Below the pieces are notes generated by a model. The model had not been told where the DNA came from. It did not search any database and saw nothing but the letters and a program-made list of their open reading frames with translations. Below are positions 1,395-20,925 of a stretch of DNA of 64,000 nucleotides, one piece after another; position 1 is the first letter of the stretch, and each line of letters opens with the position of its first letter. Where the stretch lies: assembly GCF_004005845.1 (NCBI RefSeq), contig NZ_SADE01000001.1, forward strand, positions 1,736,001-1,800,000. Direction: 5' to 3'. Made by a program: the position numbers and the translations under genes. Source of the DNA: Hwanghaeella grinnelliae. GTDB taxonomy: Bacteria > Pseudomonadota > Alphaproteobacteria > UBA8366 > Aestuariispiraceae.

Positions 1395-2693
1395 CTATTT
1401 CTGTGACGCTTCCAAAGCCTGTTTGAGGTCGGCGATGATGTCGTCGATATGCTCGATACCGATGGATAGGCGGACATAGGAATCCGTCACCCCGGTCGAC
1501 TGCTGCTCTTCCGCGCTCAATTGCGAATGGGTGGTTGTGGCCGGATGAATGGCAAGCGACCTTGCATCCCCGATATTGGCGACGTGATAGAATAGCTTCA
1601 GCGCATCGATAAACTTCGCGCCGGCTTCCTTGCCGCCCTTGATGTTGAACCCGACCAAAGCGCCCAGGCCCTTTTTCAGATAGGTTTCCGCTCGGCGCTT
1701 GTCCTCGCCCGTCTGGACGCTGGGATGAATGACGCCATCGACGGCGGCATGGGATTTCAAAAAATCGACCACGCCCAATGCGTTGGCGTTGTGTTCCCGC
1801 ATCCGCAGCGGCAGCGTTTCGAGCCCCTGGATGAACTGGAAGGCGTTGAAGGGACTCATCGCGCTGCCCAGGTCGCGCAGCAAGGTTACGCGGGCCTTGA
1901 TGATATAGGCGACCGGGCCGATCGGCTTGACCGCTTCGGTCCAGACCGCGCCGTGATAGCTGGGATCTGGTTCGTTCAGATAAGGCTGACGCTCCTTGAA
2001 ATCTTCCCAGGGGAAGGCGCCGCTGTCGACGATCAACCCGCCGATCGAGGTGCCGTGCCCGCCGATATATTTGGTCGATGAATAGACGATGATGGCCGCG
2101 CCATGGTCGAAGGGTCGGCAGCTGACCGGCGCGGCGGTGTTGTCGACGATCAGCGGGATGCCTAATTCACGGCCGATGGCGGCGACTTCCGCGATCGGGA
2201 AGACCCGCAGCTTCGGGTTTGGAAGGGTTTCCGCATAATATGCACGGGTTTTGCTGTCCGTGGCGCGGCGGAAGGCTTCCGGGTCGGACGGGTCGACGAA
2301 GCGGACTTCGATGCCCTGGTCCTTCAGCGTATTGGCGAACAGGTTCCAGGTGCCGCCATACAGGTCGGTGGAACTGACGATATTGTCCCCGGCACGGGCA
2401 ATATTCTGGATGGAAAAAGCGCTTGCTGATTGCCCGGACGCCACGGCGAGTGAGGCGACGCCGCCTTCAAGTGCCGCGATGCGCTGTTCCAGCACGTCGA
2501 CGGTCGGGTTCATGATCCGGGAATAGATGTTCCCGAGCTCTTCCAGCGAAAACAGCTTGCGGGCGTGTTCCGCGCTTTCGAATTGATACGATGTGGTCTG
2601 ATAAATCGGAACCGCGACTGCGTTTGTGGTTGGGTCGGCGCGATAGCCCGCATGCAGGGCGATGGTTTCGGGGTTTTGGCTGTTGGTGGTCAT
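1395..2693 (-). CDS. metY: O-acetylhomoserine sulfhydrylase (homocysteine synthase)
   Basis: A 432-residue PLP enzyme of the Cys/Met metabolism family. The lysine that forms the Schiff base is K208 in [10 protein letters not shown]. The phosphate-binding YSRIMNP is at 57-63 and the ASGQSA loop at about 85-90. The long form (about 430 residues) and the [11 protein letters not shown] segment are typical of MetY, which makes homocysteine from O-acetylhomoserine and sulfide, rather than of MetB/MetC/MetZ (about 390). The start is preceded by GGAGGG seven bases upstream. The gene lies behind a leader carrying two SAM-II aptamers, which fits a methionine-synthesis enzyme, and ends at an intrinsic terminator. 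O-succinylhomoserine sulfhydrylase is a less likely alternative. Confidence 0.93.
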
Positions 2694-2700
2694 TGCGACA

Positions 2701-2757
2701 CCCTCCGTTTGTAACCGTTTTTGATACGCTTTTTCACTACGAGGGCACGTTTCCGTG
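2701..2757 (-). promoter_or_regulatory. metY ribosome-binding site with a possible sequestering segment
   Basis: On the minus strand the Shine-Dalgarno GGAGGG (2706-2701) can pair with CCCUC at 2745-2741. That same CCCUC is complementary to GAGGG inside the P1 loop of the second SAM-II aptamer (2796-2792). A small hairpin, CACG-GAAA-CGUG, sits at 2757-2746 between them. The pairings are seen directly; that they form a ligand-controlled translational switch is inference, and the direction of switching cannot be settled by eye. Confidence 0.5.
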
Positions 2758-2808
2758 TCGCTTTAGCTGTTGTTCACGCGGAGCAAGCTGTCCCTCAAAT
2801 CACCGCGG
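2758..2808 (-). ncRNA. SAM-II riboswitch aptamer, proximal copy
   Basis: Read on the minus strand, the conserved SAM-II (SAM_alpha) core is present in order: P1 5' arm CGCGG, UGAUUUGAG (2802-2794), AGCUUGC (2789-2783), P1 3' arm CCGCG (2781-2777), UGAACAA, then GCUAAAG (2767-2761). P1 has 5 base pairs. The P2a pseudoknot AGC:GCU is possible. The usual short P2b partner right after AAAG is not obvious. The best partner for the loop GAGGG is CCCUC beyond a small inserted hairpin. It ends about 65 bases before the metY start, close enough to affect translation. Confidence 0.8.
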
Positions 2809-2875
2809 ACCCGGCCTCGATTTTCGAGGATGGATCGTTGCGCTGGTTTTCGTCTGTTGCGATGCGGGGAGGGCA

Positions 2876-2904
2876 ATAAAAAACCGGCCCAAAAAACGGC
2901 CGGT
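2876..2904 (-). terminator. Intrinsic terminator inside the metY leader
   Basis: On the minus strand ACCGGCC (2904-2898) pairs with GGCCGGT (2889-2883) around a T-rich loop and is followed by a run of T (2883-2878). There is no upstream minus-strand gene for it to end. It lies between the two SAM-II aptamers and so reads as the expression platform of the distal one. Confidence 0.8.
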
Positions 2905-2940
2905 GAGAGGGGGAGTGATCCCCGAAACCCTCTTTAGCCG
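2897..2940 (-). promoter_or_regulatory. Candidate antiterminator of the distal SAM-II riboswitch
   Basis: On the minus strand CGGC (2940-2937) and AGAGGG (2933-2928) can pair with GCCG (2900-2897) and CCCUCU (2911-2906). The left arm overlaps the GCUAAAGAGG needed for the aptamer pseudoknot, and the right arm overlaps the 5' side of the terminator. The structure is therefore exclusive with both. This is the standard logic for a SAM-off transcription switch; the pairings are visible and the mechanism is inferred. Confidence 0.55.
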
Positions 2941-2984
2941 TTTTTATAAAGCGCCCGCAAGCTAGGACTCAAATCAGCGCTGAG
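2928..2984 (-). ncRNA. SAM-II riboswitch aptamer, distal copy
   Basis: On the minus strand, P1 is AGCGC (2981-2977) paired with GCGCU (2954-2950). The loop contains UGAUUUGAG (2976-2968), CCUAGC (2966-2961) and UUGC (2960-2957). The 3' part is UUAUAAAAAC then GCUAAAGAGG (2938-2929). The pseudoknot is complete: AGC pairs with GCU and CCU with AGG, separated by AAAG, as in SAM-II structures. The terminator follows about 25 bases downstream. Confidence 0.88.
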
Positions 2985-2988
2985 GCGA

Positions 2989-3016
2989 AAATTAGTCGAA
3001 ACGGCCGGTGGGTCAA
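2989..3016 (-). promoter_or_regulatory. Sigma70-type promoter of the metY leader
   Basis: On the minus strand TTGACC (3016-3011) and TAATTT (2994-2989) are separated by 16 bases. The predicted start falls at about 2982, directly before P1 of the distal SAM-II aptamer, which supports both calls. Confidence 0.55.
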
Positions 3017-20499: not shown

Positions 20500-20690
20500 T
20501 CCAGTAAGCCCCCACACAAAAAATCTATTTGGCGCGCAAGCTACACCATGCGGAGCCCATTCTTCGATCCAAATTCTTTCGTCCTAGGCCGTGATGCTTT
20601 TGGGGCTGTTGCGCATGAATGGCGAAAAAGTGCGTTTCCACTGCCCGGGCGTCATTGATTTTCGGGATTTTAGCTGCCACTTCTCTTTTC

Positions 20691-20850
20691 GTTCTCAGGG
20701 CGGGGCGAAATTCCCCACCGGCGGTAAGCGGCCCAGTTGCCATGATTGGCCCGTAAGCCCGCGAGCGCCTTCTTCATTGTCAGGGGGAAGGGTCAGCAGA
20801 CCAGGTGAGATTCCTGGGCCGACGGTCATAGTCCGGATGGAAGAGAACAT
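20691..20850 (+). ncRNA. FMN riboswitch (RFN element)
   Basis: The conserved RFN blocks appear in order: CAGGGCGGGGCGAAATTCCC, CACCGGCGGTAA, GCCCGCGAGCG, GGTCAGCAGA, a GGTGAGATTCC segment, CGACGGTCATAGTCCGGATG and GAAGAGAA. A GC-rich hairpin follows (CGGC..GCCG, about 20857-20880) but no run of T, so control may be at translation of the next gene. It stands 76 bases before the ribH2 start. FMN binding is known to shut off such genes. Confidence 0.96.
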
Positions 20851-20925
20851 GCGACCGGCCCGCATCCGCGGGACGTGCCGTGTGTGATCGCCTTGGGTGA
20901 CGTGTCACTAGGAAAGGGGATCACC

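Follow-up and report, generated by a model that had tools for sequence, protein, structure and literature searches.

Tandem SAM-II-type riboswitches in the metY leader of Hwanghaeella grinnelliae and its relatives

The metY gene of Hwanghaeella grinnelliae lies on the minus strand of the window, the whole stretch of 64,000 nucleotides that was analysed here. Homocysteine is the product of metY, a gene of methionine synthesis. The divergent neighbour of the metY leader resembles an acyl-CoA dehydrogenase, as judged from its own sequence only, and the leader is therefore intergenic. Read along the minus strand, the leader consists of a TTGACC/TAATTT promoter, a SAM-II aptamer (distal copy), a terminator, a second aptamer of SAM-II type (proximal copy), the Shine-Dalgarno sequence and the ATG (Table 1).

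Table 1 Features of the metY leader and gene, as predicted, in window coordinates
Feature	Position	Strand	Details
Promoter of leader	2989..3016	-	-35 TTGACC 3016-3011, 16-nt spacer, -10 TAATTT 2994-2989
Distal SAM-II aptamer	2913..2990	-	P1 2981-2977/2954-2950, GATTTGA 2975-2969, GCTTGC 2962-2957, GCTAAAG 2938-2932
Antiterminator	2892..2945	-	AAAAACGGCT (2945-2936) and GGCCGTTTTT (2901-2892) form a duplex that encloses an inner hairpin
Intrinsic terminator	2878..2904	-	ACCGGCC/GGCCGGT and U tail, stem 2904-2883; mutually exclusive with antiterminator
Proximal SAM-II-type aptamer	2742..2816	-	P1 2807-2803/2781-2777, GATTTGA 2801-2795, GCTTGC 2788-2783, GCTAAAG 2767-2761
Hairpin and CCCTC	2741..2757	-	CACG-GAAA-CGTG (2757-2746), then CCCTC (2745-2741); from sequence and folding
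metY Shine-Dalgarno	2701..2706	-	GGAGGG, from sequence; 7 nt 5' of ATG at 2693
metY	1395..2693	-	O-acetylhomoserine aminocarboxypropyltransferase, 432 aa; TIGR01326 609 bits (cut-off 495); PF01053

A preliminary description of this DNA had placed two SAM-II cores in one leader, and both were recovered where it had put them and on the same strand. GATTTGA, GCTTGC, a five-pair P1 and GCTAAAG are present in each copy, so that all motifs it named are intact. The copies do share a leader, but the proposed spacing of about 120 bases did not hold, as the distance is 174 nt from one GATTTGA motif to the other and 96 nt between the Rfam matches. With the Rfam model RF00521 the distal copy scored 38.3 bits (2990-2913, minus strand), above the curated cut-off of 36, whereas the proximal copy remained under it with 29.6 bits (2816-2742, minus strand; E 2.7e-4 for 1.7 kb scanned). 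A scan of the whole window at the cut-off retained the distal copy alone. Of the two Rfam hits expected, the distal one alone passed the cut-off. In a leave-genus-out covariance model (R2), built from 25 alphaproteobacterial copies from other genera, the proximal copy scored 63.5 bits and the distal copy 62.9 bits, while the next-best place in the 64 kb scored 9.6 bits. The shortfall of the proximal copy probably reflects the Rfam seed. Proximal copies often fall under the Rfam SAM-II cut-off, and counts of tandem SAM-II riboswitches made at that cut-off would therefore be low.

In the family alignment 99.4% of the P1 cells are paired and two of the five pairs vary on both sides; the shuffle statistics for P1 serve as a guide, the aligned sequences being kin. 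The core strands of pseudoknot P2 are conserved in both copies, and a UCCU/AGGG pairing was noted by eye in the distal one. By its core features the proximal copy appears to be of SAM-II type, although it lies under the Rfam cut-off, and it is predicted to bind SAM.

The promoter that had been proposed to fit directly before the distal copy is present as TTGACC-16-TAATTT. TTGAC is found 40-46 nt 5' of GATTTGA in 24 of 26 distal copies, that of the window among them, against a background of 0.06% per position. A generic promoter scan gave no match for the leader promoter. The intrinsic terminator described between the two copies was found as well, with its stem followed by U's. When the distal leader is folded with the pseudoknot left out of the model, the structure of minimum energy is the antiterminator AAAAACGGCU (2945-2936)/GGCCGUUUUU (2901-2892). 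Since this structure uses the GCU of the GCUAAAG strand as well as the 5' arm of the terminator, it excludes the bound aptamer and the terminator alike. The antiterminator also covaries. Among 27 distal copies the matched duplexes, formed between the segment 5' of CUAAA and the terminator region, had a mean energy of -10.2 kcal/mol versus -8.3 (sd 0.3) when partners were swapped between loci; none of 20000 permutations reached the matched value, a figure inflated by the relatedness of the loci. Compensatory types can be read directly (ACGGC/GCCGU, GCAGC/GCUGC and GCGGC/GCCGC). The distal aptamer very probably switches transcription by means of the terminator; the mutually exclusive, covarying pair strongly supports the transcription-control half of the preliminary description, as far as sequence can.

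No terminator was found 3' of the proximal aptamer in the terminator scan. The proximal copy does precede the ribosome-binding site of metY, but it is only moderately near to it and not close, as had been described: the Rfam match ends 35 nt 5' of the Shine-Dalgarno sequence, and GCTAAAG lies 54 nt from it. From this position, the lack of a following terminator and the published pattern (see below), it was inferred that the proximal aptamer probably acts on translation of metY. In the proximal subtype a hairpin sits between the GCUAAAG strand and the P2a strand, within the pseudoknot. Such an inserted hairpin was considered as a novelty of this leader and rejected, because single SAM-II aptamers with this type of P1 commonly carry it in Alphaproteobacteria, among the matches listed. 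The CCCTC that follows it has two alternative partners: GGG within the aptamer (P2a, 2794-2792) and GAGGG in the Shine-Dalgarno sequence. The P2a pairing was better in matched than in permuted combinations in a permutation test with 46 loci of the proximal type (-8.4 vs -7.3, sd 0.24). Folding gave an accessibility of the metY Shine-Dalgarno sequence of 0.11 without SAM and of 0.18 or 0.38 with the proximal aptamer formed. No consistent change was seen over 24 loci when the aptamer was masked or not (mean 0.26 to 0.34), and folding was therefore rejected as a way to assign the sign of the proximal switch.

The tandem arrangement before metY is real and conserved in relatives. A survey of 37 genomes of the order revealed a tandem pair in ten, eight of which belong to the family of the window, itself represented by 14 genomes; the model used (R1) was partly built from these sequences, so that presence and not score is the evidence, and pairs were derived from coordinates. 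Seven family genomes carry the tandem before metY: the window's own (G000), its genus relative (G001), G005, G007, G009, G011 and G012. Two further members, G003 and G008, have the distal copy alone before metY. The genome of the window harbours a second tandem leader, before cysG (locus L033), and a cysG tandem also occurs in G001, G022 and G031. The cysG leader of the window's genome (L033:1480-1860, about 1045.5-1045.9 kb of G000:C1) has an altered distal core, with GAGTTAA for GATTTGA and AACTTGC for AGCTTGC; with these changes its binding of SAM may be weak or absent. Tandems before OsmC-like genes were found in several alphaproteobacterial lineages (G010, locus L038, and loci L059, L077, L101, L134 and L167), the genes being assigned by a family match for G010, L059 and L167 and by sequence similarity for L077, L101 and L134. 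In locus L102 metZ is preceded by a tandem pair. Among the matches listed for the exact proximal-type pattern, the leader contains a further copy upstream of the first at 11 of 98 loci. A small potential GGUCC...GGACC hairpin abuts the proximal P1 on the terminator side in L033, L034, L058, L124, L125, L158 and L167; its counterpart 5' of the proximal aptamer in L101 is GGUUCC/GGAACC.

Copies in the same leader share 62% identity, versus 82% (proximal) and 75% (distal) for copies in the same position across genes and families. These values rule out a recent local duplication. Likeness by position far exceeds likeness within a leader, which indicates two old subtypes, one distal and one proximal. 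Their fixed order on the sulfur-related genes metY, cysG, OsmC-like and metZ suggests that the pair evolves as a unit, and it may have spread or been kept as such.

It is likely that the metY leader carries two serial SAM-II riboswitches and that each of them turns metY expression down at high SAM. For methionine genes, SAM-II is considered an OFF switch (PMC1273637). Binding of SAM to the distal aptamer would lock the GCUAAAG strand in the pseudoknot, no antiterminator would form and transcription would stop near 2880. On transcripts that escape, binding of SAM to the proximal aptamer would hinder initiation at the metY Shine-Dalgarno sequence. The outcome would be a steeper, two-step OFF switch, of which the second step also acts on RNA already made. 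Two SAM-II matches, the conserved distal promoter, the covarying antiterminator and the retention of the tandem in relatives argue for this model. Against its proximal step stand the folding results, in which no block of the Shine-Dalgarno sequence appears, and the RF00521 score under the cut-off.

The same two points would fit a leader in which the response to SAM comes from the distal copy and the proximal SAM-II has little or no translational effect, or acts mainly on mRNA stability: folding yields no convincing proximal expression platform, and G003 and G008 keep the distal copy alone before metY. We regard this as unlikely, however, because the proximal core is preserved equally well in R2, with every core motif intact, and the proximal copy is kept in the seven metY leaders of the family. 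More doubtful still is an arrangement of opposite signs, in which SAM would stop transcription at the distal copy while the proximal P2a captures CCCUC, frees the Shine-Dalgarno sequence and raises translation of transcripts that have escaped termination. The two partners available to CCCUC suit this proposal, and blocking P2a in the fold raises the accessibility from 0.11 to 0.38; the genus relative (L035) behaves likewise (0.06 to 0.56). The effect is nevertheless inconsistent over the 24 loci, induction of homocysteine production by SAM makes little physiological sense, and the same aptamer type occurs singly before metZ genes, as identified by sequence. If true, the leader would form an incoherent switch that responds to one ligand at two levels, with translation raised for transcripts already made. 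A distal SAM-II followed by a proximal SAM-V, as in the two-level pair on sulfur genes of SAR11-type bacteria (PMC9481103, PMC2704228), can practically be dismissed on the evidence of sequence models: the SAM-V model RF01826 gave no match in the whole genome at E<=1 and the proximal copy fits SAM-II over the full model, so that its assignment to the SAM-II type, which the preliminary description had left to this comparison, stands.

In 2022, 44 tandem SAM-II riboswitches were catalogued, some of which have a terminator behind the first aptamer, while the second controls the ribosome-binding site (Sherlock et al. 2022, PMC9481103). The kind of pair found before metY was therefore already known, and its predicted layout shows no fundamental difference from these tandems. 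The earlier interpretation of the leader is right in substance, but its novelty argument fails. What the metY leader adds to the catalogued tandems is the covariation of its antiterminator, the constant order of two old subtypes and the presence of metY and cysG tandems in one genome. Like the SAM-II/SAM-V pair of SAR11 it is associated with sulfur genes and is predicted to act first on transcription and then on translation (PMC9481103, PMC2704228); it differs in that its second aptamer is SAM-II and more distant from the start codon, SAM-V typically being at most ten nt away (PMC2704228). In Sinorhizobium meliloti single SAM-II aptamers control metZ by a terminator and metA at translation (PMC9373788). 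The halves of the metY leader resemble these two modes joined, while S. meliloti has one aptamer per gene. The metY leader thus offers a clean, conserved case of predicted one-ligand, two-level control in an alphaproteobacterium outside SAR11, and its distal switch is simple enough for in vitro testing. A literature search for SAM-II with cysG gave nothing beyond work on the Pelagibacter proteome; a search for SAM-II with OsmC had PMC2704228 among its matches.

Some further riboswitch matches were recorded. The genome of the window contains a weak SAM-II-like match at G000:C1:635154-635209 on the minus strand (L172; 25.7 bits, E 0.006). Two near-identical SAM-II aptamers lie 3.8 kb apart in L090 (3334-3387 and 7172-7225), a MAG contig labelled Actinomycetota that is possibly misbinned. 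The window itself also harbours an FMN riboswitch at 20687-20852 on the plus strand (RF00050, 108 bits).
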